Positions 28,374-46,337 of a stretch of DNA of 64,000 bases are shown here, one piece after another. The first letter of the stretch is position 1. Every line of letters starts with the position of its first letter. The notes under the pieces are model-generated. The model was not told the DNA's origin. It saw only the letters and a program-made list of their open reading frames with translations, and made no database searches. The position numbers and the translations under genes were made by a program. Source of the stretch: Luteolibacter luteus (GTDB lineage: Bacteria; Verrucomicrobiota; Verrucomicrobiia; Verrucomicrobiales; Akkermansiaceae). Location of the stretch: assembly GCF_012913485.1 (NCBI RefSeq), contig NZ_CP051774.1:2294001-2358000 (forward strand), given 5' to 3'.

Positions 28374-28607
28374 ATAATCGAGTCACCCCGCCCCCTTTTT
28401 GTTTTGAAAGGCTGACCGGATCCGGCTGCCCGGACCACGTTGGAGCTCCGCTTTTGGATCACTTGATCACTCCCAGTTTCGGATTTTGCGCTCGTAAGAC
28501 GGGAAAATGACAGTCGGCGATGTCATCACGACCATCGACCTCGAGAAGAGTTAATAGCATGGCGGCGAATCGGCCGCGATCGCTCCAATATTTGCCTCAG
28601 GATCCCC

Positions 28608-30182: not shown

Positions 30183-30229
30183 CGGATTCGGGGCGCACGA
30201 GCCCTACGCGGGCTGTCCAAGAAAGGATT

Positions 30230-30304
<75 letters not shown>

Positions 30305-30421
30305 GTTACCAAATTCACCGCCCTTGCGGGCGGGGCGAAGGCAGTAGCGTCGCCGGACGATTCTGTCCATTGAAAAATCGTTCCCTTGCAGCGCGGATTT
30401 CCCGTGGCACCCTCCTGCTTC

Positions 30422-30931: not shown

Positions 30932-31033
30932 GGAATTTCCCCGACTTCCGGCCATTGCACCCGCAATAGCGCCTGAAATTCAGCATTCGACATTTCCCGC
31001 CCCTCCCCCATGGTGCCGGGGCTTTCACGTCCC

Positions 31034-32401
31034 ATGCTGTTTCGTAGCCTTTGCCGCCACGCCGAGATCGGCGCGAATTCTTACCTTCTGGATACCGGCA
31101 ACGCTCGCGTAGTCCTCGATGCCGGTCTTCACCCGAAGCATGACGGCCTGGAAGGCATCCCGCGGTACGATCTGCTGGAGGAAGGCTCGGTTGATTCCGT
31201 GGTCGTGACCCACGCCCACCTCGACCACATCGGCTCCCTCCCCGTCCTGCTGCGCCGTCAACCGCAGGCAAAAGCCTTCTTTTCCCCGGCCGCGGCCGAG
31301 CTTGCCACCGCGATGCTTCACAATTCCGTGAACGTCATGCAGGCCAAGCGCACGGAGCTCGGCATCACCGAGTATCCCCTTTTCACCCACCGGGACATCG
31401 ATGAAATCGAGCGCTCCTTCGAGACCCGGAATCTCGAGCGCCCCTTCGATCTCGATCCGGAAGGCCATATCCGCGCCACTTTCCACGATGCCGGCCATGT
31501 CCTCGGCTCCACCGGCATCACCATGCAGTGCAATGGTCACCGGGTGATGTACACCGGAGACGTGAATTTCGAGGACTCTACCCTGATCAAGGGCGCGATT
31601 TTCCCGGAAGAGCACGTCGATGCCCTGATTATCGAGACCACCCGCGGCGATAGCGCGCGCCGCCCGGACTACACCCGTGAGGATGAGGAAGCCCGCCTCG
31701 CCGAGGCTATCGCCCGCACCTTGGACCGCCGGGGCTCCGTCCTGATTCCGGTTTTCGCCATGGGGAAGACCCAGGAGATCCTCACGATGCTCCACCGCTT
31801 CAAAAAGCGTGGTCTGATCTCCCGGAAAACCCCCATCTACATCGGCGGCCTGAGCACGAAGATGACCGTCATCTACGATAAGTTCGCAAAGGGCCGCACC
31901 CGCCGCAGCGACGAAAGCTTCCGCATCTTGGAGGACATGGAGTTGGAGGCCGGAACCCGTAAGCGAAAGGGTCCCATGCCCCTCCAGCCCGGCGCCATCT
32001 ACTGCCTCTCCAGCGGCATGATGAGCGAGAATACCGTCTCGAACGAATTCGCCCGCGCCGGTTTCCTCGAAAACGCCAAGAACTCCCTCTTCTTCGTCGG
32101 CTACGCCGACCCCGATTCTCCAGCCGGCCAGATCCGTGCCGGTGCTCAGGGCGAAAAGATCCTGCTCGATCCCAAGCATCCCGCCGTGCCCCGTCGTTGT
32201 GAGATGGAGGTCTTCGACTTCAGCGGCCATGCCACCCGCGAGACGCTCCTCGAATACATCATGAAGGTCCGCCCAAAGAAGGCCTTCCTGGTGCACGGCG
32301 ACCCGAAGGCCAGCGCATGGTTCGCAGCACAGCTCAGGGAGAAGCTGCCGTCGACCGAAGCCATTATCCCGGAGCCCGGTAAGGACTACGAGATAGGCTG
32401 A
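31034..32401 (+). CDS. MBL-fold / beta-CASP metallo-hydrolase (RNA-processing type)
   Basis: 455 aa cytoplasmic protein. Metal motifs in order: THAHLDHIG (motif II), FHDAGHVLGS (III), YTGDVNFEDS (IV), then beta-CASP motifs A (IIETTRGDSARR, residue about 195), B (DFSGHATRETL) and C (LVHGDPKAS). RVLIPVFAMGKTQE-like sequence (SVLIPVFAMGKTQEIL) follows motif A. These are signatures of exo/endo-RNases of the YhfI/CPSF-73-like group. It may process RNA; the specific substrate is unknown. ATG 31034 gives the family-like start MLFRSLCRHAEIGANSYLL. Confidence 0.9.
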   Translation: MLFRSLCRHAEIGANSYLLDTGNARVVLDAGLHPKHDGLEGIPRYDLLEEGSVDSVVVTHAHLDHIGSLPVLLRRQPQAKAFFSPAAAELATAMLHNSVNVMQAKRTELGITEYPLFTHRDIDEIERSFETRNLERPFDLDPEGHIRATFHDAGHVLGSTGITMQCNGHRVMYTGDVNFEDSTLIKGAIFPEEHVDALIIETTRGDSARRPDYTREDEEARLAEAIARTLDRRGSVLIPVFAMGKTQEILTMLHRFKKRGLISRKTPIYIGGLSTKMTVIYDKFAKGRTRRSDESFRILEDMELEAGTRKRKGPMPLQPGAIYCLSSGMMSENTVSNEFARAGFLENAKNSLFFVGYADPDSPAGQIRAGAQGEKILLDPKHPAVPRRCEMEVFDFSGHATRETLLEYIMKVRPKKAFLVHGDPKASAWFAAQLREKLPSTEAIIPEPGKDYEIG

Positions 32402-32419
32402 AGAGAGGGAGCCGGGAAT

Positions 32420-32602
32420 TCAGCTTTTCCGGATCCAGCGCCGCAGTTGGGACGGACGCTCCTTGTCCTTGGAGGGACATGAAGTGGCGCTCTCGGAACG
32501 GTCGGCAGATCCGTGGGCAGATGGCTCCTGCGGTTTCGCACGACCACCGGGCCTGGGCCCGTCGAGGTCGCCGAACCACGCAAGGCAGATGCGACGTTTC
32601 AT
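32420..32602 (-). CDS. Small basic hypothetical protein
   Basis: 60 codons from ATG 32602 (MKRRICLAWFGDLDGPRPGG) with codon use similar to neighbours (mostly G or C at third positions). Rich in S, R, P and K; no domain recognized. Upstream is a long C/T-run (TCCCTCCCCCCCAAAAAA) rather than a Shine-Dalgarno. It converges on the metallo-hydrolase with about 18 bases between stops. Could be a chance frame; kept because codon use is good and nothing else fills the gap. Confidence 0.3.
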   Translation of the reverse strand: MKRRICLAWFGDLDGPRPGGRAKPQEPSAHGSADRSESATSCPSKDKERPSQLRRWIRKS

Positions 32603-32718
32603 TTTTTTGGGGGGGAGGGAGGTTGAGGGAAGCAGATTAGATAGTTCCCCCACCCGAATCAAGTACGCGATGCCGTATGGGAGTTGCTCCCATCGACCGA
32701 GCCACCGGCTGCCTCTCC

Positions 32719-33234
32719 CTACTCTCCAATCAGATCCGCGAGCCTCAGCTTGGCGATCTGGTGGATCTGCCGCAGGGCCTCGGAAATCTCGGCGTTGACC
32801 TGATTTCCCAAGCGCTGCTCGAAGGCACTCAAGATCCCGGACCGGTCGGCCATCCGGACGCAGATCACGAAAGGAAAACCAAACCGCTCGCGATACCGGT
32901 CATTAAGATTGCTGAAGCGTTCATACTCCTCATCCGAAAGCCGGTCCAGACCAAGTCCGGCCTGCTCACGGGTGGAGGATTCGCTCAGCTGCCCGGCGCG
33001 CGCCAGTTTCCCGGCGAGGTCGGGATGCGCCCGGATCAGCGCCAGTTTCTCCTCGTCGGTCCCGGTTTCGACCGCCATCCGCATCGCGGAGGCGATCGCG
33101 GCGCGGTCTTGGAACGGCCTTTGCTCAGCCACTTTCCAAGCAACCCATTCCGAATGCTCGTAGATCGCTCCGAGGCTGGCCACGAAGCCATCTTTCTCCA
33201 TCGCATTCAGATCCGCTGTCGATAGCCTATCCAT
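32719..33234 (-). CDS. uraD: 2-oxo-4-hydroxy-4-carboxy-5-ureidoimidazoline decarboxylase
   Basis: 171 aa from ATG 33234. OHCU decarboxylase makes (S)-allantoin from the HIU hydrolase product. Family motifs: FVASLGAIYEHSEWVA (N-terminal helix), ALIRAHPDLAGKLA with the catalytic His and Asp, LNDRYRERFGFPFVICVR. The frame continues upstream, but that is antisense to the urate oxidase gene. It is divergent from that gene with only 30 bases between starts, so both probably share a control region. With uraH at the far end of the cluster it completes urate breakdown. Confidence 0.93.
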   Translation of the reverse strand: MDRLSTADLNAMEKDGFVASLGAIYEHSEWVAWKVAEQRPFQDRAAIASAMRMAVETGTDEEKLALIRAHPDLAGKLARAGQLSESSTREQAGLGLDRLSDEEYERFSNLNDRYRERFGFPFVICVRMADRSGILSAFEQRLGNQVNAEISEALRQIHQIAKLRLADLIGE

Positions 33235-33264
33235 CAATCGTCTAATTCCCAATAACTGCTGCCC

Positions 33265-34110
33265 GTGGCAACGCTCGAATCCAACCGGTACGGAAAGTTC
33301 CGCGTCAGGGTGATGAAAGTCATCCGGCACGACGAAACCCACCACGATGTTTGCGAGATCGAGGCGGACGTGCTCCTGCAGGGGGAACTGGATGGCTCCT
33401 ACCTCAGCGAGGACAACCGCTCGATCATCCCCACGGATACGGTAAAAAATACGGTACACTTTCTCGCCCACGATCAGCTCGGCACCTGCCGCACCAGCTT
33501 CGCCCAGGTGATCGGGAAGCACTTCTTGGAAACATATCCCCACCTCGCCGGCGCGGAGATCGAGCTGCGCGAGCGGAAATGGGACCGCCTGAGCATCGAT
33601 GGCACGCCGCATCCCCACGCCTTCGCCCACTCTGCCAACGGTGAGTTCTTCTCGCGTGGCAGCTTCTCCCGTGGCCAGGCACCGGTCCTATCGTCCGGCA
33701 TCCGGGGGCATCTGATAATGAAGACCACCCAATCCGGCTTCGAAGGCTACAATATCTGCGAGTTCACCACCCTGCCGCCAACCAGTGACCGCGTCTTCGC
33801 CACCCGCTTGGGCGCGGAGTGGTCCTTTGATTCCACCGCCACCGATTACTGCAGCGCGGATGCCGCCATCCTCACCGCCGCCCACGAGGTCTTCGCCAAC
33901 ACCTACAGCCCCTCGGTCCAACGCACCCTCTTCGAGATTGGCGAACTCGCCCTTGCACGTGTGCCCCACATTTCCCGCATCGAACTGAAAATGCCGAACG
34001 TCCACTTCCTAAGCCTCGACCTCACCAAGCTCAGCCGCCCGAACCAGAACGCAGTGCTCCTACCCACCGATGAACCCCACGGCGAAATCGAAGCCGTGAT
34101 CACGCGCTAG
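33265..34110 (+). CDS. Urate oxidase (uricase)
   Basis: 281 aa cofactor-free oxidase that converts urate to 5-hydroxyisourate. Two T-fold repeats are visible: YGKFRVRVMKVIRHDETHHDVCEIEADVLLQG, then NRSIIPTDTVKNTVHFLA (the catalytic Lys-Thr region), and SGFEGYNICEFTTLPPTSDRVFATRLGAEW; the C-terminal IELKMPNVHFLSLDLTKL is family-specific. The start is GTG 33265; no better start is seen and there is no Shine-Dalgarno. It is divergent from uraD and belongs to the same pathway. Confidence 0.95.
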   Translation: MATLESNRYGKFRVRVMKVIRHDETHHDVCEIEADVLLQGELDGSYLSEDNRSIIPTDTVKNTVHFLAHDQLGTCRTSFAQVIGKHFLETYPHLAGAEIELRERKWDRLSIDGTPHPHAFAHSANGEFFSRGSFSRGQAPVLSSGIRGHLIMKTTQSGFEGYNICEFTTLPPTSDRVFATRLGAEWSFDSTATDYCSADAAILTAAHEVFANTYSPSVQRTLFEIGELALARVPHISRIELKMPNVHFLSLDLTKLSRPNQNAVLLPTDEPHGEIEAVITR

Positions 34111-34269
34111 TCACGCGCCAGCGCCCGGGAGCGCGGAGCCTCCGGCTCGCAGAATGGTCCCTCCCGACACGCCGTCCATCGACCCTCAAATCACCCCTTG
34201 GTCACGAATCCCCCGCTCATCATCCTTCAGCACGCTTCGACTGATGATCGGTGACCGCACCTTTCCCCG

Positions 34270-35040
34270 ATGAATCCCTGGCAAGAGATCACCCGCTGCA
34301 TGGAAATCGGCACCGAACTCGTCGTCGTCACCGTCGCTGCCGCACGTGGCAGCGTTCCCGGCGAGACAGGCGCCAAGATGCTCGTGAGCCGCGAGGGACT
34401 TCTCTCCGGCACGGTAGGCGGTGGCCGCATCGAAGCCCGCGCTTTGGAAGAAGCGGGGCAACTACTAGATTCATCGGAGGCCACCAGGCTCCACTGCTGG
34501 AATCTCCAGCAAGACATCGGCATGACCTGCGGCGGCGAGATGACCCTGCTCTTCGAACGCATCGCCGCCAAGCCACCCTGGCACATCGCCATCTTCGGCG
34601 CCGGTCATATCGTCCAAGCCCTTGTTCCGGTGCTCGCATCCCTTTCCTGCCAGATCGATGTCGTCGATACACGGCGGGACTGGCTCCAACGCCTTCCTTC
34701 CTCCGCCAATATCACAACACATCACCTCGCCACTTTCGAGGCCGGCGCCTCCCTGCTCAACGAATGCTCCTTCGTGCTCTCCATCACAAAGGGCCACGGC
34801 AGCGACGTTCCCGTTCTAAGGGAAGTCCTCACCCTCTTCCCAGGCATTCCCTTCCTTGGCGTCATCGGCAGCGCCTCGAAGCGCGCGGCTCTCCTGCGGG
34901 ATCTTCGCGAAGCGGGCATCAACGAGTCGCTACTGGAAAAAATCACCTGTCCCCTCGGCCTTCCCATCGGCGATAACGACCCCCATGAGATCGCCATCAG
35001 TGTCGCGGCGCAGCTTCTCGAAAGGCGGGACAGGCGCTGA
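34270..35040 (+). CDS. xdhC: Xanthine dehydrogenase accessory protein XdhC
   Basis: 256 aa. XdhC proteins bind the molybdenum cofactor, protect its sulfuration and insert it into xanthine dehydrogenase. N-terminal domain: TVAAARGSVPGETGAKMLVS, then GLLSGTVGGGRIEARALEEA. C-terminal Rossmann-like domain: WHIAIFGAGHIVQALVPVLASL and FLGVIGSASKRAALLRDL, with PIGDNDPHEIAISVAAQLLERR near the end (usually IGA-x-x-P-E-I-A). It is on the + strand, apart from the xdh gene on the minus strand but in the same locus. Confidence 0.93.
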   Translation: MNPWQEITRCMEIGTELVVVTVAAARGSVPGETGAKMLVSREGLLSGTVGGGRIEARALEEAGQLLDSSEATRLHCWNLQQDIGMTCGGEMTLLFERIAAKPPWHIAIFGAGHIVQALVPVLASLSCQIDVVDTRRDWLQRLPSSANITTHHLATFEAGASLLNECSFVLSITKGHGSDVPVLREVLTLFPGIPFLGVIGSASKRAALLRDLREAGINESLLEKITCPLGLPIGDNDPHEIAISVAAQLLERRDRR

Positions 35041-35086
35041 ATCGCTTTTTGATTGAGCGGTTGTTGTACACCGCCTCGCAACCCCG

Positions 35087-35578
35087 CTATCTCACACCCT
35101 TCCTGAACTTCCGCTGCCCTCGATTCGTTGCTTGGAGTCTCTGTGCAGCCTCAAGGTCCTCTTTTAGTTCTTTTGGAAGGGCGTGTTGCAGATTCTTGAG
35201 CTCCACTTGAAAATGCGTCGCCGCCTTGGCAAACCAAGAGCCGCCTTTAAGATGACCTTCAAGCTTCGTATTCGCATAACAGAAAACCGCTCTCCGCTCG
35301 GGATCTTCTGCTTTCAACATTGCTAGCTTCAGAATATCGCGCGCCACTTTCTTCTTCTGACCATCGAGAAGAGACCCTTGTCGGCAGAAAACCTCGACTA
35401 TGGTTAAACCATCATCCGACAAGCCGTCGACACTCACGTGCGATCCATCTGACAGAATGATTTTCCCAGGTTTCAAGTCGCCATACTCTTCCCTTAGAAG
35501 CAGGCGAATCGGCTCTTCCGCTGCTAGTTGAATCCCGCTAATGGCGGTGTGATCTTTTCTCATCGCTTCCAAAGACAT
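35087..35578 (-). CDS. Hypothetical protein with nuclease-like pattern
   Basis: 163 aa from ATG 35578 (MSLEAMRKDHTAISGIQLAAEEPIRLLL). The central part HVSVDGLSDDGLTIVEVFCRQGSLLDGQKKKVARDILKL follows a pattern seen in small PD-(D/E)XK-like proteins (D, then E-V, then a Lys-rich helix), which is only a hint. The C-terminus is basic (NRGQRKFRKGVR). The gene is AT-richer than its neighbours, and it lies alone among purine genes, so it may have come by transfer. A weak AAGG sits upstream of the ATG. No function assigned. Confidence 0.65.
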   Translation of the reverse strand: MSLEAMRKDHTAISGIQLAAEEPIRLLLREEYGDLKPGKIILSDGSHVSVDGLSDDGLTIVEVFCRQGSLLDGQKKKVARDILKLAMLKAEDPERRAVFCYANTKLEGHLKGGSWFAKAATHFQVELKNLQHALPKELKEDLEAAQRLQATNRGQRKFRKGVR

Positions 35579-35793
35579 GATTGGGACCTTACCTCGGTCA
35601 AGACGACATCTGGAATATGAATGGACCACCGTTATCGCGCATTGTGTCTGTTTCCCCTGTCATCTCGGCATCCTCCGGCACGGCATGTCGAATCTCGACC
35701 ATCTGATGCTCTCGCCTCAGAACTAACACTCCGGGCTACCACGACCATCCAAATTCCCCTAGCCATCGCTTGCAGAAAGAAACCCCGAAAATC

Positions 35794-36399
35794 ATGAAGG
35801 CGATCATCCGGCAGGCCACGCCACAAGACGCGGAGGAGATCCAGGCGATCTACGAACCGGTCGTGCAGGATAGCGTCATCTCCTTCGAAATCGATCCGCC
35901 TTCGGCGCAAGAGATCCGGAAGCGCATGGCCGCCATTCAGCAACGATTCCCTTGGCTGGTCTGCGAGATCGACGGGAAAGTTGCTGGCTACGTCTATGCC
36001 TCTCCCCACCATGAACGCGCCGCCTACCGGTGGTCCTCGAATGTCTCCGTCTATATTCACCAAGACTATCACCGCCGCGGCATCGGCCGCGCACTCTACA
36101 CCTCGCTGTTCGCTTTGCTAAAGCTTCAAGGTTTCTACAATCTCTATGCGGGCGTCACCCTACCGAACGAAGGCAGCGTCGGCCTCCACGAATCGATGGG
36201 CTTCGAGCCCGTCGGCACCTACCGGAACGTCGGCCACAAGTTCGGAGCCTGGCATGATGTGGGGTGGTGGGCCCTCACGCTTCGACCACACGATGCCCAG
36301 CCCGCTGCTCCTTTCCCGGCACCGTCGCTCCAAGGCAGCATGGAATGGCAAGCCGCCATCGACGAAGGAAGGGCACACCTCGCCCCCGCGGGGCTATAG
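35794..36399 (+). CDS. GNAT N-acetyltransferase, phosphinothricin-acetyltransferase-like
   Basis: 201 aa. Signatures: KAIIRQATPQDAEEIQAIYEPVVQDSVISFEIDPPS, then VAGYVYASPHHERAAYRWSSNVSVYI, the acetyl-CoA loop YHRRGIGRALYTSL, and the C-terminal HESMGFEPVGTYRNVGHKFGAWHDVGWW, which is typical of Pat/YwnH-like enzymes acting on methionine sulfone/sulfoximine or phosphinothricin. ATG 35794 chosen (an earlier ATG at 35770 adds 8 residues). Convergent overlap of 6 bases with the next minus-strand gene. The true substrate is probably a metabolite, not a herbicide. Confidence 0.85.
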   Translation: MKAIIRQATPQDAEEIQAIYEPVVQDSVISFEIDPPSAQEIRKRMAAIQQRFPWLVCEIDGKVAGYVYASPHHERAAYRWSSNVSVYIHQDYHRRGIGRALYTSLFALLKLQGFYNLYAGVTLPNEGSVGLHESMGFEPVGTYRNVGHKFGAWHDVGWWALTLRPHDAQPAAPFPAPSLQGSMEWQAAIDEGRAHLAPAGL

Positions 36400-36972
36400 T
36401 CCACTCGCGGACCTGACGCTATCCTCCTGCCTCAATCGATCGAAGTAGCGTCGATAGCAGCGGATGTAATTTGTATCGATCTGGCAGCAGGTAATCCGAT
36501 CCATCACTACCCAAGGCAACGGCTCCTCAACGACGCCGGTACTTGTGAAATGGCGGATCTCTACGGCATCGGCATCCATGCCGGCGACCGAACCGATCCA
36601 GAAACCCGGATCGTCTTCCGATTCTTCCGCAAGAATAATGATCTCGTCGTCCTCGCGCGTCTGCAGGAAGGATTCAAAGGAGGCGATCGGAACCCTGAAA
36701 CCAAATTCAATCTGATCAAAGACACCCTCGACTTCGAGCAGCTCTTTCTGAAAGCGATCCGCGGGATCACACCTGACCTCGGAAAGATCGCAGCGCCTCA
36801 AGATCTTGTACCCGTCCAGACGAAAGTCGTAGACGTATTGGATGAGGACAAGGCTTTCAGAACAATCGAGCACGACCCCTTGCATCCCGTTTCTATCGAC
36901 GCTTTCCCTTCGGATGCTTACGAGGTCGCGATTCTTGATATGGGCTCGCAAGAGCCTTGTGGAGATAGCCAT
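36394..36972 (-). CDS. Hypothetical protein
   Basis: 192 aa from ATG 36972 (MAISTRLLRAHIKNRDLVSIRRE). Not recognized. It is mixed alpha/beta by appearance, with many acidic residues (TREDDEIIILAEESEDDPGFWIGSVAG) and repeated short hydrophobic strands (GVVLDCSESLVLIQYVYDFRLDGYKIL), which could form a beta-barrel or SH3-like fold, and 'GYKILR' is reminiscent of Hfq/Sm-like or WYL-adjacent domains (weak). The upstream open frame to 37200 is low-complexity and overlaps xdh, so it was not used. Slightly AT-richer than neighbours. Confidence 0.7.
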   Translation of the reverse strand: MAISTRLLRAHIKNRDLVSIRRESVDRNGMQGVVLDCSESLVLIQYVYDFRLDGYKILRRCDLSEVRCDPADRFQKELLEVEGVFDQIEFGFRVPIASFESFLQTREDDEIIILAEESEDDPGFWIGSVAGMDADAVEIRHFTSTGVVEEPLPWVVMDRITCCQIDTNYIRCYRRYFDRLRQEDSVRSASGL

Positions 36973-37139
36973 GGATGGGATTTTGAAAGTTAACGCTGAA
37001 ACTACCCCTTCGTCGACACCGACTCTTTCTCCACCGCTCATGCAACCTCTTCCACGGAGAGATCGACCTCCTTCTCCACCTCCCCTAGGTCGGACTTTCT
37101 GATGCTGAGACAAATTTCCACGAACCGCGCCTTGGACAC

Positions 37140-40100
37140 CTACCTCTCCCGAAGATCCGCAATTGAGCGTAGGGACAACTTCACTGCCTCCCCAGTGCAA
37201 GGGGACCCCAGATCAAAATCCCCTTTCCGTCCGAAGGCCGACACCGCATCACGCATCGCCTCCCGCACCGAGATCGCCAGCATCAACGGCGGCTCTCCCA
37301 CCGCCTTGCTGCCATGAATCGTGCGCTCTTGGCTCGCATTCTTGAGCAGCGAGACACGGAAATCCTCCGGCACATCGCTGACCGTGGGAATGGCATAAGA
37401 GCTCGCGCTATGGGAAAGCAGCACGCCCTTCTCATTCCACTTCAGTTCTTCTCGCGTAAGCCAGCCCATCCCTTGCACGAAGCCACCCTCGATCTGTCCG
37501 CGATCCACCGCGGCATTCAGGGAGTCACCCACATCATGCAGGATATCCACCCGCTTGACCTTGTTCATGCCGGTGAAGCCATCGATCTCCACCTCGCTCA
37601 CCGCCGCACCACAGGCATAATAGTGGAAAGGCTTCCCCTTCCCTACCTTCCAATCCCACTTCAAATCGGGCGTGGCATAGAAGCCGGCCGCCGAAAGCTG
37701 GACACGCCTTTGATACGCAAGCATCGCCAAGTCCGCGAAGCCGATGGAACCGCCAGAACCCTGCGCTGATCCCTCGGAGAAGCGGATCTCTTCCGGCCCA
37801 CAACCGATCTTCTCCGCGGCAAGCGGTGCCAAGCGTTCGCGGATCTGCCGGCAAGCATCCGCCACCGCCATCCCATTGAGATCGGATCCCGAACTCGCCG
37901 CCGTGGCAGAGGTGTTCGGAACCTTGTCGGTCCGCGTGTGCATCAGACGGATACTCGCCGCAGGGAGACCGAGCTCGCGCATCGCGATGCCCAGGATCTT
38001 CGTATGCAGGCCCTGCCCCATCTCGGTGCCGCCATGGTTCACCTGCACCGAGCCATCTGCATAGACCAGAACGAGAGCACCCGCCTGGTTGTAGTGAGTC
38101 AGCGTAAAGCTGATGCCAAACTTCACCGGCGTGATCGCAAGGCCTCGCTTGCGATGCGGGTGAGCTTCATTCCAGGCATCTACCTCCCTCCTTCGCACGG
38201 CAAACTCTGAAGTCTCCAGTAGCTCATCCCAGATCCGGCAGATCCGATTGTCACCGATCTCCGCCCCGTAGTGGGTCGTATTCGCCTCGCCCCTACCATG
38301 ATAGAGATTCTTCCGTCGCACTTCCTCAGGAGGCATTCCCAGCCTCAAGGCAATGCGTCCCACGATCTCCTCGATGACCAGCATGCCTTGCGGCCCGCCA
38401 AACCCTCGGAAGGCGGTATTCGAAGCGATATTCGTCTTCGCGACCCGGCCCTCGAAATGAACGTTGGGGATGTAGTAGGCGTTATCGAGATGGAACAAGG
38501 CCCGATCCGTCACTGGCAGTGAGAGATCGAGTGACCATCCGCCATCGGAGAAGAGTCTTACCTCCGCGGCCTGAAGCATGCCGTCCTCACCATAGCCCAC
38601 CCGGTACTTCGCCAGGAAAGGATGACGTTTGCCCGTTGAGACCATGTCTTCGTCCCGATCCAGCTGCCAGCGGACCGTCCTGCCCGTCTTCAGCGCCGCT
38701 ACGGCACACAGCGCGGCAATCGCATTCCCCTGGGTCTCCTTTCCTCCGAATCCCCCGCCCATCCGTGGAGACTCGACCACCACCTGATGACGATGCATGC
38801 CCAGTGCCTCCGCAATAATCGTCTGGATCTCGGAAGGATGCTGCGTGGAACTGGAAACATACATGCCTCCTTCCCCGTCCGCCTCCGCCCAGGCAGCATG
38901 TGTCTCTAGATAAAAGTGCTCCTGCCCGCCAAAGGAAAACTCGCCTTCCAGAACCTGTGGCGACCTCGCCAAGGACTCTCCCACGTCGCCGCGCGACAGC
39001 ACATGCGGGTCCGTGTGAAAGGAGTCCGCTTCAATGGCCGCCTTTACCCCGAGGATCGGCGGAAGCTCTTCAATCTCGATCTCCACCTTTGCCGCCGCGA
39101 TCCGGCAAGCCTCCAGGGACTTGCCAACCACCAAAGCCAGCGCCTGGCCGTGAAAGAGGATCTCATGCTCCGCCAGCAGCGGCTCATCATGCCGCGAGGG
39201 ACCGCTGTTGTTCGCTCCGGGAATATCCCCGGCCAGCAGGACCGCCACGACACCCGGCGATTTCCTCACTGCGGAAACATCCAGCTTCCGCAAGCTCCCG
39301 CGCGCCACCGTCGAACGGATGGCCCACACCTCCAGCATCGGTCGGCCCAGCGCGGTGTCATGCACATAGCGCGCTGAACCAGTCACATGTCCACGCGCGC
39401 TCTCATGCACCATCCCGCCGCCACCATCAAAATGTGCAGCCGGCACTCGAGTCTCCGTTACTTCATCCGCAACGAATTTCTCAAACAACCCGCGTATCAC
39501 CGCGCACCGGTAGTCCGCACTTCCTCGCACATCGCTCAGTGGCGTGAACGACCTCTCCAAAAAATCCAGCACCGCCTCGTCTATCAGCAGCGGCCTGCCG
39601 ATCAGCGCCTCCTCCACTGCCATCGCCCGCATCGGCCTCTCCGCCACGCCACCAAAGGCCAGCCGGGCCTCCTTGACGATCCCAGTCTCGTCCTGCACCA
39701 CGCGGAATCCCGCCGCGACGATCGAGATATCCATCTCACAACGCTTCGAGACCTTGTAGAAGGCAACCCTACCTTTGGGACTCCTCGGAATCCGGATCGC
39801 ACGGATCAATTCCTCCGCCCTCAGCACGGTCTTCCTGTAGCCCGTGAAAAACTCCGCGATCGGCACCTCGCGCTCGCCATCCGCGGAAACGAGCACCATC
39901 ACCGCATCCAGCGCTAGCAGGATCGGCGCGCTATCCCCGATCGGCGATGCCGTGGCCAAGTTCCCGCCCAGCGTCGCACGATGCCGGATCTGCCGGGAGC
40001 CAAACCAACGAAACATTTCATCCAGCGCTGGATACTCTCCGCCGAGGGCATCCTGGATATCCGTCAGCCGCGCCGCGCCGCCGATCTCCCAAGCATCTTC

Positions 40101-40835
40101 ATACCGCCGGATCACCGCCAACTCCCGCACTCCATCCAGCGCGATCATCACGGTGGGTCGAGCATGACGCTTGTTTACCAGCACCGCGACCTCCGTAGCA
40201 CCCGCCACAAAAACCGCATCCGGATGCTGCTTCTTGAAAGCGAGTGCATCGGCAATCCGCGCCGGCCTCAGAAAAACTCCACCGTCCACATGGCTGCTCG
40301 CCGCAGGCGCAGGAATCTCACCCGCCTTCATCCAGTCATCCCACTCATCGCGCGTCTCGTGTTTCTCGAGCGAACGCTTCATCGCCTCATGAATCGGACG
40401 ATACCCTGTGCATCGGCACAGGTTCCCGCAAAGCCGGTCAGCGATCGCCGCATCACCCGGAGCCTCCGGTGCGTGCCACGCTTCCGTCATCGAGGCAATA
40501 AAGCCCGGCGTGCAATAACCACACTGCGACCCATGGCATGAAATCATCGCCTCCTGTACCGGATGCAAGTTCTCACCCTTTGCGATTCCCTCCACCGTCC
40601 GGATCTCGCGGCCCGCAAACACATGCACGAAAGCCAGGCACGAGTTCACCGCACGCAGCTTCCCATCCGGCTCCACCAGCAACACCGAGCAGGCCCCGCA
40701 GTCCCCCTCATTGCAACCGCACTTCGTTCCCGTGCGACCGCTTCGTCTCAGAAAATCCAGCACCGTCTCGTGCAGCGGCACCGCGCTCACATCGAGTGCC
40801 TCGCCATTCACGCGCAGGATCGCAGGACTCGTCAT
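37140..40835 (-). CDS. Xanthine dehydrogenase, single fused polypeptide
   Basis: 1231 aa with all three xanthine dehydrogenase parts in one chain, in the order of eukaryotic enzymes. N-terminal 2Fe-2S domain: GTKCGCNEGDCGACSV, then GSQCGYCTPGF and LCGNLCRCTGYRP. FAD domain about 190-480: FVAGATEVAVLVNK, SRQIRHRATLGGNLATASPIGDSAP, FFTGYRKTVL. Molybdenum domain: GGGFGGKETQ, SNTAFRGFGGPQGM (substrate Arg), GGTEMGQGLHTK and the catalytic Glu in GSKAVGEPPL. It oxidizes hypoxanthine and xanthine to urate. The ATG overlaps the stop of the upstream hydrolase by four bases (ATGA). Most bacteria split this into xdhA and xdhB. Confidence 0.95.
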   Translation of the reverse strand: MTSPAILRVNGEALDVSAVPLHETVLDFLRRSGRTGTKCGCNEGDCGACSVLLVEPDGKLRAVNSCLAFVHVFAGREIRTVEGIAKGENLHPVQEAMISCHGSQCGYCTPGFIASMTEAWHAPEAPGDAAIADRLCGNLCRCTGYRPIHEAMKRSLEKHETRDEWDDWMKAGEIPAPAASSHVDGGVFLRPARIADALAFKKQHPDAVFVAGATEVAVLVNKRHARPTVMIALDGVRELAVIRRYEDAWEIGGAARLTDIQDALGGEYPALDEMFRWFGSRQIRHRATLGGNLATASPIGDSAPILLALDAVMVLVSADGEREVPIAEFFTGYRKTVLRAEELIRAIRIPRSPKGRVAFYKVSKRCEMDISIVAAGFRVVQDETGIVKEARLAFGGVAERPMRAMAVEEALIGRPLLIDEAVLDFLERSFTPLSDVRGSADYRCAVIRGLFEKFVADEVTETRVPAAHFDGGGGMVHESARGHVTGSARYVHDTALGRPMLEVWAIRSTVARGSLRKLDVSAVRKSPGVVAVLLAGDIPGANNSGPSRHDEPLLAEHEILFHGQALALVVGKSLEACRIAAAKVEIEIEELPPILGVKAAIEADSFHTDPHVLSRGDVGESLARSPQVLEGEFSFGGQEHFYLETHAAWAEADGEGGMYVSSSTQHPSEIQTIIAEALGMHRHQVVVESPRMGGGFGGKETQGNAIAALCAVAALKTGRTVRWQLDRDEDMVSTGKRHPFLAKYRVGYGEDGMLQAAEVRLFSDGGWSLDLSLPVTDRALFHLDNAYYIPNVHFEGRVAKTNIASNTAFRGFGGPQGMLVIEEIVGRIALRLGMPPEEVRRKNLYHGRGEANTTHYGAEIGDNRICRIWDELLETSEFAVRRREVDAWNEAHPHRKRGLAITPVKFGISFTLTHYNQAGALVLVYADGSVQVNHGGTEMGQGLHTKILGIAMRELGLPAASIRLMHTRTDKVPNTSATAASSGSDLNGMAVADACRQIRERLAPLAAEKIGCGPEEIRFSEGSAQGSGGSIGFADLAMLAYQRRVQLSAAGFYATPDLKWDWKVGKGKPFHYYACGAAVSEVEIDGFTGMNKVKRVDILHDVGDSLNAAVDRGQIEGGFVQGMGWLTREELKWNEKGVLLSHSASSYAIPTVSDVPEDFRVSLLKNASQERTIHGSKAVGEPPLMLAISVREAMRDAVSAFGRKGDFDLGSPCTGEAVKLSLRSIADLRER

Positions 40836-42070
40836 TGCAGGCTCAATTCCTTCAAGCACTCCTTCAAAACCTCCACCCCCTTCGCAATCGCCTCCGGCGA
40901 GCTATATTCGTCCGGCCGATGGCTATAGCCCTTGAAGCACGGGATGAAGATCATCGCCGTCGGACAAACCCGCGCCATGAAAAGCGAATCATGATAAGCC
41001 CGGCTCACCATCCGGCTCGTGGAAAACCCGGCAGCCACTGCTTTCGCCTCCACCATTTTCACCAATCCCGGATCACAAAGCGCAGGCGGATCCTGATTGA
41101 GCACTTGCCACTCAATCTTCACGCCGCGACGCCTGCACAGCGCATGCGTTCCGTCACCGATCCGCGCCAGCGCACGATCCCGCGCCTCGCGATCGGTATC
41201 GCGGAAGTCCACCTCCAGCTTCACATCGCAGGGGATGCTATTGATCGCGCCGGGCCTCACTTCCACCACACCTACGGTACCTACCGTATCAGAACTGCCA
41301 CTCTCCAGCGCCGCCTTCTCCACCAGCAGCGCGATCTCCGCCGCCGCCATGAAAGCATCCTGACGCTCCCGCATCAGCACCGCACCCGCATGACCGCCCG
41401 CACCCTTCAGCAGGAGCCGGAAAGCCGATGGTGCCGCAATCTTCTCCACGATCCCGATATCGATCTGCTTCTCCTCAAGCATCGGGCCCTGCTCAATGTG
41501 CAGCTCCACGAACGCCCGATACGCGCCCGTCGAAAGCTTCACCGCACCCAAATTCCCGCGACATCCCGCAGCCTCCCGCAGCTCATCCAGCGAACGCCCC
41601 TCCGCATCGCGCAAGGCACCCGCCTCTTCCGGCGAAGTCGTCCCCGCCATCAAGCGGCTACCCAGACAACCGATCCCGAAACGCGTCGGCTCCTCCGAAG
41701 TGAACATGATCAGCTCGATCCCCCGCTTCGGCACGTGCCCCGCTTCCTTCAACTGACGCATCGCCTCCAGGCCACCCAGCACACCCACCACGCCGTCATA
41801 CTTCCCTGCATTCGGGATCGCATCCGTATGCGATCCGGTCGCAACTGCAGGCAGACAGGGCTCGCTGCCTTCCCAGCACACGAAAAGATTCCCCACCGGA
41901 TCCTTCCGCACGCGGAAGCCCGCGTCCTTCGCCCGCGCCGTCAACCACTCGCGGGCCCTCAAATCCTCCGCCGAGAAAAGCACCCGCGTCACCGCCGGCG
42001 CAGGATGCGCGGAGATCGCGGCAAGCTCCTCGATCTCACGATCGAGCCGGCTAAGGGAGACGGTGGACAT
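40832..42070 (-). CDS. M20-family ureidoglycolate amidohydrolase (probable)
   Basis: 412 aa from ATG 42070. Zinc M20/allantoate amidohydrolase family: SHTDAIPNAGKYDGVVGVLGGLEA (metal His and Asp), MFTSEEPTRFGIGCLGSRLMAG (Glu pair), FVELHIEQGPMLEE, GGHAGAVLMRERQDA, and RAYHDSLFMARVCPTAMIFIPC. The string SEEPTRFGI-CLGSRL is close to that of plant ureidoglycolate amidohydrolases. This supports ureidoglycolate to glyoxylate plus 2 NH3 and CO2. It overlaps the upstream gene by 20 bases and xdh by 4, in a coupled run. An exchange of role with the other M20 gene at 44322-45689 cannot be fully ruled out. Confidence 0.8.
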   Translation of the reverse strand: MSTVSLSRLDREIEELAAISAHPAPAVTRVLFSAEDLRAREWLTARAKDAGFRVRKDPVGNLFVCWEGSEPCLPAVATGSHTDAIPNAGKYDGVVGVLGGLEAMRQLKEAGHVPKRGIELIMFTSEEPTRFGIGCLGSRLMAGTTSPEEAGALRDAEGRSLDELREAAGCRGNLGAVKLSTGAYRAFVELHIEQGPMLEEKQIDIGIVEKIAAPSAFRLLLKGAGGHAGAVLMRERQDAFMAAAEIALLVEKAALESGSSDTVGTVGVVEVRPGAINSIPCDVKLEVDFRDTDREARDRALARIGDGTHALCRRRGVKIEWQVLNQDPPALCDPGLVKMVEAKAVAAGFSTSRMVSRAYHDSLFMARVCPTAMIFIPCFKGYSHRPDEYSSPEAIAKGVEVLKECLKELSLQ

Positions 42071-42791
42071 CCTTGTAGTAGAGATAGCTGGCAGGCTCGT
42101 CCCCCATTGCGACGAACCACTGCGGGCAATACGGCGCCATCCAGATCGCATCACCCTCCTTCACGGGAAAATACTGCTCGTCCAGCCGGTAAACGCCCTG
42201 CCCGGAAAGCATCAGCAGACCGTGTTCCATCACGTGCGTCTCCACAAAGGGCAGCGTCGCTCCGGGCTGATACGTGAAAATATTCATCGCCAGGTCATAG
42301 CGCGAATCGATCGGCAGCAGCGTCTGCAGCATCGCCTTCTCATTGCCGAGAAATGGCTCGGCCGGAATGTCCGCGATATGCCCGTGCACCGCCGGTGGCG
42401 CCTCGATGTTGTCCACCGGCTCGAACATCTTGCGAAAGATCGTCAGACGCGTGCCTTCCGTGCCATGCAGCGCCAGCACGTTCTCGGACGGCACGAAAAG
42501 GAAGCCACCATCCGCCAGCGTCACATCGCCATCATCCCACACTGCGCGCACATCTCCCGCCTCCACGTAGATCGCGTGCTCATGCTCATCTGCGGGAAAC
42601 CACGCCGTGCCACCTTCCGCCTCATAGACCACCAGCATCTGGCTCATCTCCGCCCCCATCGCCGGGGAAATCAGGACGTAAGCCGTCGCACCCTCCCAAC
42701 CGGGAAAGGCACTCGGCACGTGGCCGTCCGGAGTGATCAAGGCATGGCGGAGGGCGACGCGGGTGCGGGTATTGCCGAAAAGCGGAGTCAT
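42051..42791 (-). CDS. allE: (S)-ureidoglycine aminohydrolase
   Basis: 246 aa two-cupin enzyme that releases ammonia from (S)-ureidoglycine, giving (S)-ureidoglycolate. The family signature is clear: TRTRVALRHALITPDGHVPSAFPGWEGATAYVLISPAMGA at the start, FPADEHEHAIYVEAGDVRAVWDDGDVTLADGGFLFVPS in cupin 1 and FVETHVMEHGLLMLSGQGVYRLDEQYFPVKEGDAIWMAPYCPQWF in cupin 2 with manganese ligands (E-x-H...H) in pieces THVMEHG. The C-terminus ends SYLYYKDVHRLP as in bacterial and plant members. It overlaps allB by 4 bases. Confidence 0.94.
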   Translation of the reverse strand: MTPLFGNTRTRVALRHALITPDGHVPSAFPGWEGATAYVLISPAMGAEMSQMLVVYEAEGGTAWFPADEHEHAIYVEAGDVRAVWDDGDVTLADGGFLFVPSENVLALHGTEGTRLTIFRKMFEPVDNIEAPPAVHGHIADIPAEPFLGNEKAMLQTLLPIDSRYDLAMNIFTYQPGATLPFVETHVMEHGLLMLSGQGVYRLDEQYFPVKEGDAIWMAPYCPQWFVAMGDEPASYLYYKDVHRLP

Positions 42792-44116
42792 GTGTCGGGT
42801 GTCAAAAGCTGGCCGTGCGTCGCGGGGGATACCGGGTTCCCCCGGAGCCAGGTGGCCTCCACCCGCCACGCGCTGCGCATCCCCACATACGGGGAAATCG
42901 GATGACGGGCCAGCAGGTCTTTTTCCTCGATCACATGAGGGTCCAGCCTCAGCAGGCAAAAGTCCGCATCCAGCCCCGGAGCGATCGCACCCTTCCGCGA
43001 GGAAAGCCCGAAGCGGCCCGCCGGCTTCGCCGCACACATCAGCGCCAGCTGCTCCCAGTTTGTCACTCCCAGCGCCCGCTCCAGCAACAGCGGAAAACCA
43101 TGCTGGCACCCCGCAATCCCGCCCCACATCGAAAAAACATCATCGCCCTCCTTCAGCTCCGGCGGCGATGGCGAGTGATCGGACCCGATCGTATCGATAT
43201 CCCCCGCCACCAAGGCCCGCCACAAGCCATCCACGGACCCCGCTTCGCGCAGGGGCGGTGCGCACTTCGCCGCAGGGCCGATCCGGATCGCCGCCTCCGT
43301 GTCCAGCAGCAGGTAGTGGGGACAGGTCTCCGCCGTCACGTTGATCCCCGCCTTCTTTGCGGAGGAAACCAGCGCCACCCCTTGCGCCGTGCTGATGTGC
43401 ACGATGTGCAGCGCGCAGCCCGTGTCCTTCGCGCATTGGATCGCCATCTCGATCGCCGCGAGCTCCGCAGCCACCGGCCGCGATCTCAGCCAATCCGCCA
43501 TGCTCCCCGGGCTGGGCGGCGGATACACCTTCTGGTGCGCCGTGATCGCCGCAGGACTTTCCGCATGCACCGCCACCGGCAGGCCAAATTCCGCTGCCAC
43601 ATGCATGCCCATCCGCAGCGTGTGCTCACCCGCGGCCGCAAATTCATCCAGCCCGCTCGGACACATGAAGGCCTTGAAACCCACCACACCCGCCCGCGCC
43701 ATGTGCGGCAAATGCGGCAGCGATCCCGGCGTCAATCCGCCCCACAGCGCGAAGTCCAGCCGGCTATTCGCCTCACCCGCCCGCCGCTTCGCCTCAAACG
43801 CCACCACATCCAGCACCGGCGGCGTCGAGTTCAACGGCATATCGATGAATGTCGTCCCGCCTCCCGCAGCCAGCGCCGTCGATCCCGTCGCGAAGCCCTC
43901 CCACTCCGTCCGCCCCGGCTCGTTGAAGTGCACGTGCGCATCCACTAGCCCGGGAAACATCACCTTCCCGCTCACATCGATCTCCACCGCCGCGCTCCCC
44001 CTCAGGTCCGGCGCCATGTCCGCGAAGATCTCCCCGGAAATCCCCACATCCATCGTCTGCAGGCCGGTAGCCGTAACCACCGAAGCCCGGCGGAGGATCG
44101 TGTCGAAGTGGCTCAT
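42788..44116 (-). CDS. allB: Allantoinase
   Basis: 442 aa cyclic amidohydrolase that opens (S)-allantoin to allantoate. Metal motifs: VDAHVHFNEPGRTEWEG, GGGTTFIDMPLNSTPP, the carboxylated-Lys segment AGVVGFKAFMCPSG, ALHIVHISTAQG, TAETCPHYLLLD and DTIGSDHSPSP. They are all intact. ATG 44116 starts MSHFDTILRRASVV; the frame is open upstream but the added part reads His/Phe-rich and is unlikely. It is coupled to allE by a 4-base overlap. A 205-base gap with a repeat array separates it from allC. Confidence 0.95.
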   Translation of the reverse strand: MSHFDTILRRASVVTATGLQTMDVGISGEIFADMAPDLRGSAAVEIDVSGKVMFPGLVDAHVHFNEPGRTEWEGFATGSTALAAGGGTTFIDMPLNSTPPVLDVVAFEAKRRAGEANSRLDFALWGGLTPGSLPHLPHMARAGVVGFKAFMCPSGLDEFAAAGEHTLRMGMHVAAEFGLPVAVHAESPAAITAHQKVYPPPSPGSMADWLRSRPVAAELAAIEMAIQCAKDTGCALHIVHISTAQGVALVSSAKKAGINVTAETCPHYLLLDTEAAIRIGPAAKCAPPLREAGSVDGLWRALVAGDIDTIGSDHSPSPPELKEGDDVFSMWGGIAGCQHGFPLLLERALGVTNWEQLALMCAAKPAGRFGLSSRKGAIAPGLDADFCLLRLDPHVIEEKDLLARHPISPYVGMRSAWRVEATWLRGNPVSPATHGQLLTPDT

Positions 44117-44294
44117 GGGGAGGTAGAAAAAGACAAAGTGCCGGGTCATCCGGCATCGATGCCGACAATGGAAAATGTGACGCGGAAAGTGAAAGTGATA
44201 AATACCAGCCACCCCTCGGAAAGCAGCGATCCGGCCATCATTCGGTGCCCCCTAAAAATGCTGACCTCTCCCAGCTCCCCTTCTTTCGATAGTC

Positions 44295-44315
44295 ACTCGG
44301 CACTCTGCCTTTCCT
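44295..44315. repeat. 7-base repeat array 1 (allC-allB spacer)
   Basis: Units on the + strand: ACTCGGC, ACTCTGC, CTTTCCT, preceded by GATAGTC. The array abuts the 3' end of allC (stop at 44322). The pair ACTCGGC, ACTCTGC followed by CTTT recurs at 45114 and, with one change, at 45948. Part of the family described at 45934-46009. Confidence 0.7.
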
Positions 44316-44321
44316 CCCCGC

Positions 44322-45689
44322 TCACCCTTCGTCCAGCCCAAGCAGGAAATCCACCAGCACCCTCAATGCCACCCCGATATCCTCCGGCGAGGCATACTCG
44401 TCCGGATGATGGCTCAGCCCGTCCCGGCAACGCACGAAGAGCATCCCGATCGGCATCGCCTTCGACATCATCACGCCGTCATGCCCGGCCCCGCTCGTCA
44501 GCATCAGCGGCGTCCCCGTATACGGCTTCGCCGCCTCCTGCAGCCGCTTCGTCAGCGCCTCGTCACAGGCCACCGCCCCCGTCTCCTGCACCACCTCGCT
44601 CACCAGCTCCAATTGCCGCTCCTCCGCGATTCCCGCGTAGCTTCCTAGCAACTCCGCCAGCAAACGCTCCCGCTCCCCATCCGCCGGATGCCGGAAGTCC
44701 AGGGTAAAGCTCACCTCCCCCGGGATCGCATTCGATGCCCCCGGCTTCACCTCCAGCTTCCCCACCGTCGCCAAGAGATTCGGCTGCTCCCGCGCGATCC
44801 GCTCCGTCGCCAGGATACACTCCGCCGCCCCCGCCAGCGCATCCTTCCGGATCTCCATCGGCGTCGTCCCCGCATGATCCGCCTGACCGTTCAAAGTGAT
44901 CAAAAGCCGGCTCTGCCCGCTGATCCCCGAAACCACGCACACCGGCTCCCTCCACACCTCCAGCACCCGCCCCTGCTCGATGTGCACCTCCACATACCCC
45001 AGCGCATCGCCGGGAGCATAATGAAATGACGAACTCGCCAGCGACACCGCAGACCCCGCCTCAGAGCCATCCCTCCCACGCTCCTGCCTCTCACTGATCA
45101 CTGCTGACTGATCACTCGGCACTCTGCCTTTCTCGAGCGCCTCCCTCACACTCACCCCCTTCGCATCCCTCAAATTCAGCACCCCCTCCGTCAGCTCCCC
45201 CACACAAGCCCGGCTCCCCAGATACGTCGCATGAAAGCGCACCCCCTCTTCATCGGAGAAACCCAGCACATGCACCGGAAACGAAAGCGCCCCCGTCACC
45301 TCCAGCGCCGCAATCGCGATCAAAACCCCCAGCGGTCCATCATACTTCCCCGCATCGATCACAGTATCCAAATGCGACCCCAGCACCAAAGCCCTCCCAT
45401 CACCTTCCTCCTCACCCTCTTCTTCCTGCCTCTCACTGAAAACTGAACCCTGAACCCTAGCAAACTCCCCCTGCCTTTCCCGCATCACCCCCCTCACCGT
45501 CCCCCCTCGGTCAAACCCCACCTCCATCCCCGCCGCCCTCATCCACTCCCCCACCCGGCGCGCCGCCTCCAGATTCGCCGGGGACAGGAAACCCCGGCTC
45601 AAGCCATCACCCGGCGTATCCGTCAACTCACCCAGCTCCTCGATCCGCTCCAGCAGCCGGTCCAAGGCATCCTCAAGCTTCTCATCCAC
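44322..45689 (-). CDS. allC: Allantoate amidohydrolase with repeat-derived insertions
   Basis: 455 aa from GTG 45689 (VDEKLEDALDRLLERIEELG). M20-family enzyme: LVLGSHLDTVIDAGKYDGPLG, GFSDEEGVRFHATYLGSRA, YVEVHIEQGRVLE, NGQADHAGTTPMEIRKDALA, TSGAGHDGVMMSKAMPIGML and LSHHPDEYASPEDI. This matches AllC/HyuC enzymes (allantoate to ureidoglycine, CO2, NH3). Two inserts, at about residues 70-99 and 186-213, are acidic and Q/R/S-rich (both contain SERQE) and are encoded by 7-base repeat arrays that keep the frame. The frame is open to 45935, but that upstream part is repeat and hairpin sequence and was not used. The normal protein is about 410 aa. Confidence 0.88.
   Translation of the reverse strand: MDEKLEDALDRLLERIEELGELTDTPGDGLSRGFLSPANLEAARRVGEWMRAAGMEVGFDRGGTVRGVMRERQGEFARVQGSVFSERQEEEGEEEGDGRALVLGSHLDTVIDAGKYDGPLGVLIAIAALEVTGALSFPVHVLGFSDEEGVRFHATYLGSRACVGELTEGVLNLRDAKGVSVREALEKGRVPSDQSAVISERQERGRDGSEAGSAVSLASSSFHYAPGDALGYVEVHIEQGRVLEVWREPVCVVSGISGQSRLLITLNGQADHAGTTPMEIRKDALAGAAECILATERIAREQPNLLATVGKLEVKPGASNAIPGEVSFTLDFRHPADGERERLLAELLGSYAGIAEERQLELVSEVVQETGAVACDEALTKRLQEAAKPYTGTPLMLTSGAGHDGVMMSKAMPIGMLFVRCRDGLSHHPDEYASPEDIGVALRVLVDFLLGLDEG
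45093..45127. repeat. 7-base repeat array 2, inside allC
   Basis: Five exact 7-base steps on the + strand: ACTGATC (45093), ACTGCTG (45100), ACTGATC (45107), ACTCGGC (45114), ACTCTGC (45121), then CTTT. Flanked upstream by CTCCTGCCTCTC, the same flank as array 3. It is read through on the minus strand as part of allC insert 2. Confidence 0.85.
45435..45462. repeat. 7-base repeat array 3, inside allC
   Basis: Four steps on the + strand: ACTGAAA (45435), ACTGAAC (45442), CCTGAAC (45449), CCTAGCA (45456). The same CCTGCCTCTC flank as in array 2 comes just before. It is translated on the minus strand as allC insert 1, followed by a Glu-rich run (QEEEGEEEGDG) from neighbouring CTTCTTCCTC-type sequence. 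Confidence 0.8.
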
Positions 45690-45782
45690 CCCACCATTCA
45701 AACCCGAATCCCGCCCCAAATTCAACGCCCGATCTTCCACCTCCACACCAAAGCGACCCGGTCCACAGGGCTTTCCCCTCCG

Positions 45783-45830
45783 CGCTCCGCAGGAGCGGTC
45801 CGCATAAAATGTAGCGTCGCTCGATGAGCG
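45783..45830. repeat. Two GC-rich palindromes between allC and uraH
   Basis: CGCTCC-GCA-GGAGCG (45783-45797) and CGCTC-GAT-GAGCG (45818-45830) are perfect inverted repeats about 20 bases apart. They resemble REP-like extragenic palindromes. A related short one, GAGCC-TCC-GGCTC, lies after the uricase gene at 34136-34148. They lie in the 318-base gap 45690-46007, which otherwise holds only array 4; I see no gene there. Confidence 0.5.
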
Positions 45831-45933
45831 TCGGAAACTCGCGGCACCGGCCGCATCGAGAGATTCCCCCAAGATCACTCTCGGCCAAAGCCGCGACACG
45901 CCCTCTTCGTCCCCCTCATCCCTCCTGACTTTC

Positions 45934-46009
45934 ACTGATCACTGATCACTCGGCACTCCGCCTTTTCCTCTTCCTCTCCGCTCCTAGCTCTCCGTTCTCC
46001 GCTTCCCTC
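45934..46009. repeat. 7-base repeat array 4, abutting the uraH 3' end
   Basis: Units on the + strand: ACTGATC (45934), ACTGATC (45941), ACTCGGC (45948), ACTCCGC (45955), CTTTTCC (45962), one 6-base step, then TCTCCGC (45975), TCCTAGC (45982), TCTCCGT (45989), TCTCCGC (45996), TTCCCTC (46003). The array ends in the uraH stop codon (46008-46010). It shares ACTGATC, ACTCGGC and ACTCYGC with arrays 1 and 2. Confidence 0.75.
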
Positions 46010-46337
46010 AACTCCCCCGATACGTCGAATACGCGTACGGTGAGCAAACCAGCGGCACGTGATACGACTGCCCCGCCTCCACCCGGAAGCGCACGGGAAC
46101 CACGTCCAAAAAGGGTGAGTCCACCCCCAACTCCCTGAAGTAGGCCCCCGCGTGGAAATGCAGCTCGTAGGTTCCCGGCACCAGCGCGTCTCCCTTCAGC
46201 AGTGCCTCACCACTACGCCCGTCCGCATTGGTCACGATCGAAACCACAGCCGCCCCATCTTTCAGAAGATCCACTCGCATGCCCTCCGCGGGCCGGCCAT
46301 GGGCGGTATCGAGGACGTGGGTGGTAAGCTTCCCCAT
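46008..46337 (-). CDS. uraH: 5-hydroxyisourate hydrolase (transthyretin-like)
   Basis: 109 aa from ATG 46337. It hydrolyses 5-hydroxyisourate, the uricase product. N-terminal KLTTHVLDTAHGRPAEGMRVDL with the catalytic His, and the C-terminal signature HVPLVCSPYAYSTYRGS (conserved Y-R-G-S end) match the family. It is the first gene of the minus-strand purine run (uraH-allC-allB-allE-UAH-xdh). The open frame upstream to 46472 is not family-like. Confidence 0.96.
   Translation of the reverse strand: MGKLTTHVLDTAHGRPAEGMRVDLLKDGAAVVSIVTNADGRSGEALLKGDALVPGTYELHFHAGAYFRELGVDSPFLDVVPVRFRVEAGQSYHVPLVCSPYAYSTYRGS

Follow-up and report, generated by a model that had tools for sequence, protein, structure and literature searches.

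A 64-kb stretch of the Luteolibacter luteus chromosome (contig NZ_CP051774.1, positions 2,294,001 to 2,358,000; hereafter the window) carries four arrays of seven-base repeats in and around allC, a gene of the allantoate amidohydrolase / hydantoinase-carbamoylase family. We read these arrays as single arms of short dispersed elements, the complete copies of which hold an S23/IVP gene between inverted heptamer arrays, and put the probability of this reading at roughly 0.72. The source of the heptamer repeats reported from cyanobacteria, Beggiatoaceae, Xanthomonas and other bacteria has been obscure, as has the role of solitary S23/IVP genes, which are common. Should the link between the two hold, one tiny element class accounts for both, predicts how repeat families and genes are paired, and provides a direct experimental entry. 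The S23 link would give the seven-base repeats found unexplained in many bacteria an origin that can be put to the test, and the case of allC is one in which such arms enter an enzyme gene and stay in frame.

Two dispersed families of heptamer arrays

By sequence the arrays fall into two families. Type A reads ACTGATC-ACTGATC-ACTCGGC-ACTCTGCC-TTTC and type B reads ACTGAAM-ACTGAAC-ACTAGCA-AACTC. The 6.41-Mb genome of L. luteus contains some 20 copies of type A, and many more are spread over the genus. With at most 3 mismatches allowed for it, CACTCGGCACTCTGCCTTT was found in 14 places of this genome versus 5 for a reversed control; ACTGATCACTGATCACT gave 42 overlapping matches versus 1. The units are thus enriched genome-wide, a point that a first-pass annotation of the window had named as a check. 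A longer type-A pattern occurs in 16 of 57 genomes and the type-B pattern in 13 of 57, L. luteus being one of the 57; the reversed controls gave no match and one match, respectively. Most genomes with these patterns are of the same genus, though other families of the order are represented too. The genome is Haloferula/Luteolibacter-like, in line with the Verrucomicrobiota host suggested at first pass.

Simple sequence repeats (SSRs) could arise without any element, by polymerase slippage on chance seeds. Heptamer SSRs are over-represented in many bacteria, one proposal being slippage tied to the footprint of the polymerase (see the discussion in PMC4692102), and the length of our arrays does differ among loci. 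Period-7 tandem DNA in general, however, showed no enrichment in 864 kb of the genome, sampled as 20-kb stretches, so types A and B are specific dispersed elements and not the sign of a repeat-rich genome. The exact order of units (ACTGATC-ACTCGGC-ACTCTGCC; ACTGAAC-ACTAGCA-AACTC; B then A) is common to different species, and the two arms that flank an S23 gene correspond to one another. With no general period-7 excess and a unit order that different species share, slippage is not the principal cause of the arrays and is very unlikely to be the whole of it. The first-pass annotation had spoken of an undescribed mobile or slippage-driven element; what stands of this is that the element is dispersed and apparently undescribed, its mobility being suggested by distribution only.

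Read on the G-rich strand, the two types are frequently joined in a single composite of fixed order, B then A (GAGTTTGCTAGTGTTCAG...GGAAAGGC...GAGTGCCGAGTGATCAG), as seen in genomes G003, G007, G015, G005 and G009. Pairs of elements in opposite orientation often enclose a short stretch, with GAGTGCC or GAGTTTG outermost in 14 of 14 pairs. Two of these 14 enclose an S23/IVP four-helix-bundle gene: a type-A pair in L. luteus and a type-B pair in G029. The L. luteus copy lies outside the window, between nrdA and nrdB, and has type-A arms inverted on both sides of a gene (C1:2548376-2548768) for a 130-residue protein. This protein matches TIGR02436 (4.1e-29) and PF05635 (2.4e-27), and its nearest solved chain is 2GSC (2e-13), the product of XCC0516, which we take from the locus tag to be a Xanthomonas campestris gene. 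For two complete elements the RNA is predicted to fold into a rod that the arms close (z -5.0 and -4.7). The first-pass annotation was incomplete in this respect, as complete copies with an S23/IVP gene between inverted arrays lie beyond the window arrays, which themselves have no S23 gene. Partial copies, consisting of one arm or of a short inverted pair without a gene, are spread in intergenic DNA and often adjoin a gene boundary.

The site next to nrdB also has an S23 gene, judged by coordinates, in G003, G009, G011, G012, G013 and G014. In several Haloferula-like genomes such genes lie beside nrdB and ahead of nrdA (L285:13002-18217). On a Nostoc edaphicum plasmid (L384) an S23/IVP gene lies between the plasmid's own nrdB and nrdA.

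Inverted arrays at S23/IVP genes

The PF05635 genes of relatives lie between two heptamer arrays, one the reverse complement of the other, with a unit that varies by locus (AGGGGTC, GATGGTC, AGTAGCG, AAGTTCA, AGACGCA, AGGGTTC, GGTGATC and others). S23/IVP and control loci were scored for inverted flanks with one common scheme and a cut-off of 13. A score of at least 13 was obtained for 63 of 82 S23/IVP loci, from several phyla, versus 1 of 138 control genes. These are 23 of 26 loci in Verrucomicrobiota, 11 of 20 in assorted genomes, 16 of 22 in Gammaproteobacteria and 13 of 14 on plasmids, mostly of cyanobacteria; the controls gave 0/60 for allC, 0/17 for nrdB and 1/61 for annotated genes on cyanobacterial plasmid stretches. 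Period 7 alone is raised in the flanks, every other period from 4 to 13 being present at no more than 0.14 of loci. Among 244 genes called in the L. luteus genome, 0.8% have a comparable array.

S23/IVP genes and heptamer arrays might merely co-occupy permissive intergenic sites, the arrays being targets and not parts of an element, and solo arrays are indeed found without S23 genes, even in a genome that has none. Yet left and right arms match within a locus and differ between loci of one genome, beyond what mismatched-pair controls show: 59 of 82 S23 loci lie above the 95th percentile of mismatched left/right pairs from the same sets. Arms also follow S23 clades among close relatives, MSEIETFEDLDVWKRGC going with type A, MATTTFEDLEVWKR with type B, MHSHNFENLEVWRR with AGAGACC/AGAAACC and HNFEELEVWKRSS with AGACAGA. 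In G012, G013 and G014 an identical changed unit is present on both arms of the S23 gene, and in the former two the outer arm end resembles type A. Co-occupation of sites is thus an unlikely account of the bracket.

S23 genes with heptamer arms also occur on plasmids of Nostoc, Calothrix and Anabaena. On annotated cyanobacterial plasmid stretches, arrays lie at the S23 copy, and in 2 of 3 solo arrays lie elsewhere as well, some with the same unit.

Several observations weigh against the arrays being arms of S23/IVP elements. About one quarter of the S23 loci, among them a third L. luteus copy, are without clear inverted flanks. Across 72 loci the relation of protein to arm similarity is weak in a Mantel-type comparison (Spearman 0.04, with 38 of 500 permutations as high), and it becomes visible only above about 60% protein identity. 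Genome G007 has some 53 solo arms and gave no match in the PF05635 search, so S23 is not needed for arms to persist; this genome counts against a simple helper role of S23. L. luteus has type-B arms, yet no type-B S23 gene was seen in it. The allC and nrdB-nrdA sites do differ in occupancy between species, but the sequences are too diverged to fix the ends of the element, and the species compared yielded neither a target-site duplication nor a clean empty/filled pair. No alignment with filled spacers is visible for the empty nrdB-nrdA spacers of G007 and G004, few nrdB loci having been parsed there by motif.

Two side observations concern the S23 genes themselves. On Pseudanabaena and Anabaena plasmids (L388, L392), the interval between cas6 and cas4 in type I-D loci of clustered regularly interspaced short palindromic repeats (CRISPR) holds S23/IVP genes with heptamer arms; 23S rRNA IVP is named in a figure legend of a CRISPR-association screen (PMC10910872). 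In a 1.5-Mb gammaproteobacterial genome (G419:C1) PF05635 gives 11 weak matches; several of them score identically, which suggests that an S23-like gene has multiplied there recently.

Strand orientation and relation to known systems

The orientation of solo arms is set by local GC skew, not by gene strand. The G-rich arm lies on the locally G-rich strand in 157 of 182 solo elements. On contig G007:C5 all 49 of 49 elements have the same orientation across 174 kb (1-174000, L262-L270), where genes, called with an in-house caller, run both ways and GC skew ranges from +0.17 to +0.48. For a bacterial chromosome this is a very strong skew, and it still amounts to +0.14 to +0.28 farther on (L291-L296). 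The contig also has many other purine-rich intergenic repeats, e.g. CGCGGAGGCGCAGAGGTCGCGGAGG and ACCACGGAATACACGGAA.

This orientation bears on two further explanations. Repeats that act in cis on translation or mRNA and are selected at gene boundaries have a proposed precedent in TAACTGA of Beggiatoaceae (PMC4679880), and many copies do stop a few bases upstream of an ATG (L202, L209, L211, L212, L219, L234, L247). Copies are nevertheless also found past stop codons and within genes, and orientation tracks the chromosome strand rather than the gene. A strictly gene-regulatory reading was rejected because strand skew and not genes sets orientation, and cis-regulation as the source of the repeats is quite unlikely. 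Alternatively, the elements could be spread in trans by a Y1 transposase, as are repetitive extragenic palindromes (REP) by REP-associated tyrosine transposases (RAYT) or elements of the IS200/605 type. Single-strand transposition would fit the strand bias, and Y1 transposases are present in every member of the genus, but their counts are unrelated to those of the elements: G013 has 19 Y1 and zero A/B copies, G007 has 3 Y1 and the most copies. The gene between the arms is S23 and no transposase. The REP/RAYT candidate was rejected on the counts, and Y1-driven spread appears highly improbable. REP, bacterial interspersed mosaic elements (BIMEs) and miniature inverted-repeat transposable elements (MITEs) resemble the elements described here in being short, dispersed, intergenic and often in inverted pairs; unlike them, our elements have arms of tandem heptamers and, by Y1 counts, no association with a transposase.

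Closer counterparts are the intervening sequences of 23S rRNA with an S23/IVP open reading frame, known for example from Leptospira and Coxiella burnetii, in which the S23 gene lies within complementary ends (PMC4990558). In Coxiella the intervening sequence measures 428-444 nt, its ends form a stem, and its distribution is patchy, a mobile origin having been suggested (PMC4990558). The complete L. luteus copy likewise has an S23/IVP gene, a similar size and complementary ends closing a stem. It differs in its location between nrdA and nrdB, as the elements here occupy varied intergenic sites instead of 23S rRNA genes; moreover, the stem consists of heptamer arrays that vary by locus, and arms without a gene are dispersed. 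The S23-gene elements with heptamer arms are best read as relatives of the 23S rRNA intervening sequences.

Heptamer repeats described in bacteria comprise the short tandemly repeated repetitive sequences (STRRs), TAACTGA in Beggiatoaceae (PMC4679880) and GGGAATC/GGGGAYT in Xanthomonas and Nostoc (PMC4692102). The present repeats share with them the seven-base unit and a mainly intergenic location, with some copies in frame within genes, and as in STRRs the tandem units are scattered over the genome. Unlike the elements found here, those in PMC4679880 and PMC4692102 are given no link to S23/IVP genes and no inverted bracket. A literature search, with most subscription journals outside its reach so that priority is not assured, gave no paper that joins heptamer repeats to S23/IVP genes. 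The element class is apparently widespread and undescribed.

As we read it, a complete element measures about 0.45-0.5 kb and has an S23/IVP four-helix-bundle gene between a heptamer array and the inverted copy of that array. When transcribed it would form a long rod that the two arrays close, on the plan of the S23-bearing 23S rRNA intervening sequences. Judging from their distribution alone, the elements may move or be copied; the arms could pair as RNA or single-stranded DNA, and S23, as an Avd homologue, may recognise and bind the hairpin of its own arms. Avd is the partner of the reverse transcriptase in diversity-generating retroelements. No reverse transcriptase, template or variable repeat was seen with our elements, though no search was aimed at these. 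PF05635 (2GSC) has been reported to resemble Avd (4DWL) (PMC10053308). The elements might be copied through single strands at replication forks, which would produce a strand bias. It is possible, if doubtful, that heptamer repeats across bacterial phyla, cyanobacterial STRRs included, are the arms of one S23/IVP-encoding class and are copied via an S23-bound RNA or single-stranded hairpin intermediate.

The window arrays and their place in allC

The features of the window are collected in Table 1. All four arrays reported at first pass are present, their heptamers spanning 44294-44312, 45093-45132, 45435-45467 and 45932-45965, and in 4 of 4 the ACT strand is the plus strand. Periodicity is weak in arrays 1 and 3 (lag-7 matches at 10 of 17 and 19 of 46), which were identified through the family sequence. 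Of the four, Tandem Repeats Finder (score 30) reported arrays 2 and 4 and part of array 3. ACTNNNNACTNNNNACT occurs 5 times in the window, always within arrays 2 and 4, versus a mean of 0.07 and a maximum of 1 in dinucleotide shuffles, and CACTCGGCACTCNGCCTTT occurs 3 times versus 0.10 expected.

Table 1. Arrays and genes of the window (window coordinates).
Feature	Position	Strand	Remarks
Array 1	44294..44312	+	Type-A arm end (CACTCGGCACTCTGCCTTT), directly past the allC stop codon
Array 2	45083..45132	+	Type-A arm and flank CCTGCCTCTC, within allC; coding-strand peptide KGRVPSDQSAVISERQ; missing in most orthologues
Array 3	45425..45479	+	Type-B arm (ACTGAAAACTGAACCCTGAACCCTAGCAAACTC), flanks CCTGCCTCTC and CTGCCTTTC, within allC; missing in most orthologues
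Array 4	45932..45965	+	Type-A arm in uraH-allC spacer; G015 has a type-A arm in the equivalent spacer
allC (allantoate amidohydrolase / hydantoinase-carbamoylase family)	44322..45746	-	Two in-frame inserts; open frame extends to 45935; family models
uraH (hydroxyisourate hydrolase)	46008..46337	-	3' side towards array 4; family models

Family models support the identities first given to allC and uraH. The location of arrays 2 and 3 within allC also held, as did their common flank CCTGCCTCTC (45083-45092 and 45425-45434) and the SERQ(E) that minus-strand translation gives in both. Arrays 1 and 4 had been placed beside the 3' ends of allC and uraH. Array 1 does follow the allC stop and the 3' side of uraH faces array 4; the allC start, by homology, is near 45746 and not at 45935, so array 4 sits in the uraH-allC spacer.

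Both allC inserts are missing in most orthologues, matches being interrupted around residues 268/301. In the alignment of relatives the AllC orthologues of G007, G009, G012, G029, G001, G013, G016 and G056 have no insert, in agreement with the expectation that homologues without the repeats would lack it, and the insert as a regular feature of AllC was rejected on the same grounds. The nearest orthologues have heptamer elements at the same two loops in differing combinations (A, B or B+A). In G003 allC, B then A is present at both loops together with additional heptamers. In Haloferula sp. BvORR071 (L052), whose allC resembles that of G015, the first loop and the uraH spacer are occupied by A; in the G010/L053 orthologue, heptamers of the units ATGGCAG and CATCTAC stand at the first loop (L135:1066-2250). 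The two loop sites look recurrently occupied by elements. The N-terminal part of the G010/L053 allC lies in another frame, and this gene may be interrupted.

The earlier proposal that the inserts fall at loops of the family fits the alignment. The AlphaFold model of AllC has a modest overall predicted local distance difference test (pLDDT) score of 67, falling to about 30 at both inserts; this very low confidence agrees with disordered loops and is no proof of them. An open frame runs through arrays 2 and 3 on the G-rich strand only. The two arms would persist in frame because of this open frame and because both sites lie in variable loops.

The GC skew of the allC coding strand (0.43) is the highest among 592 genes sampled; in the same ranking a second hydantoinase-family gene is second and a dehydrogenase tenth. 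Strand asymmetry peaks locally in the purine catabolism operon (window 28000-46000), where 2-kb bins go down to -0.37. Finally, the uraH-allC spacer contains palindrome-like DNA at 45770-45900 (GCGCTCCGCAGGAGCGGTCC, GTCGCTCGATGAGCGTC), which may be a further dispersed repeat.
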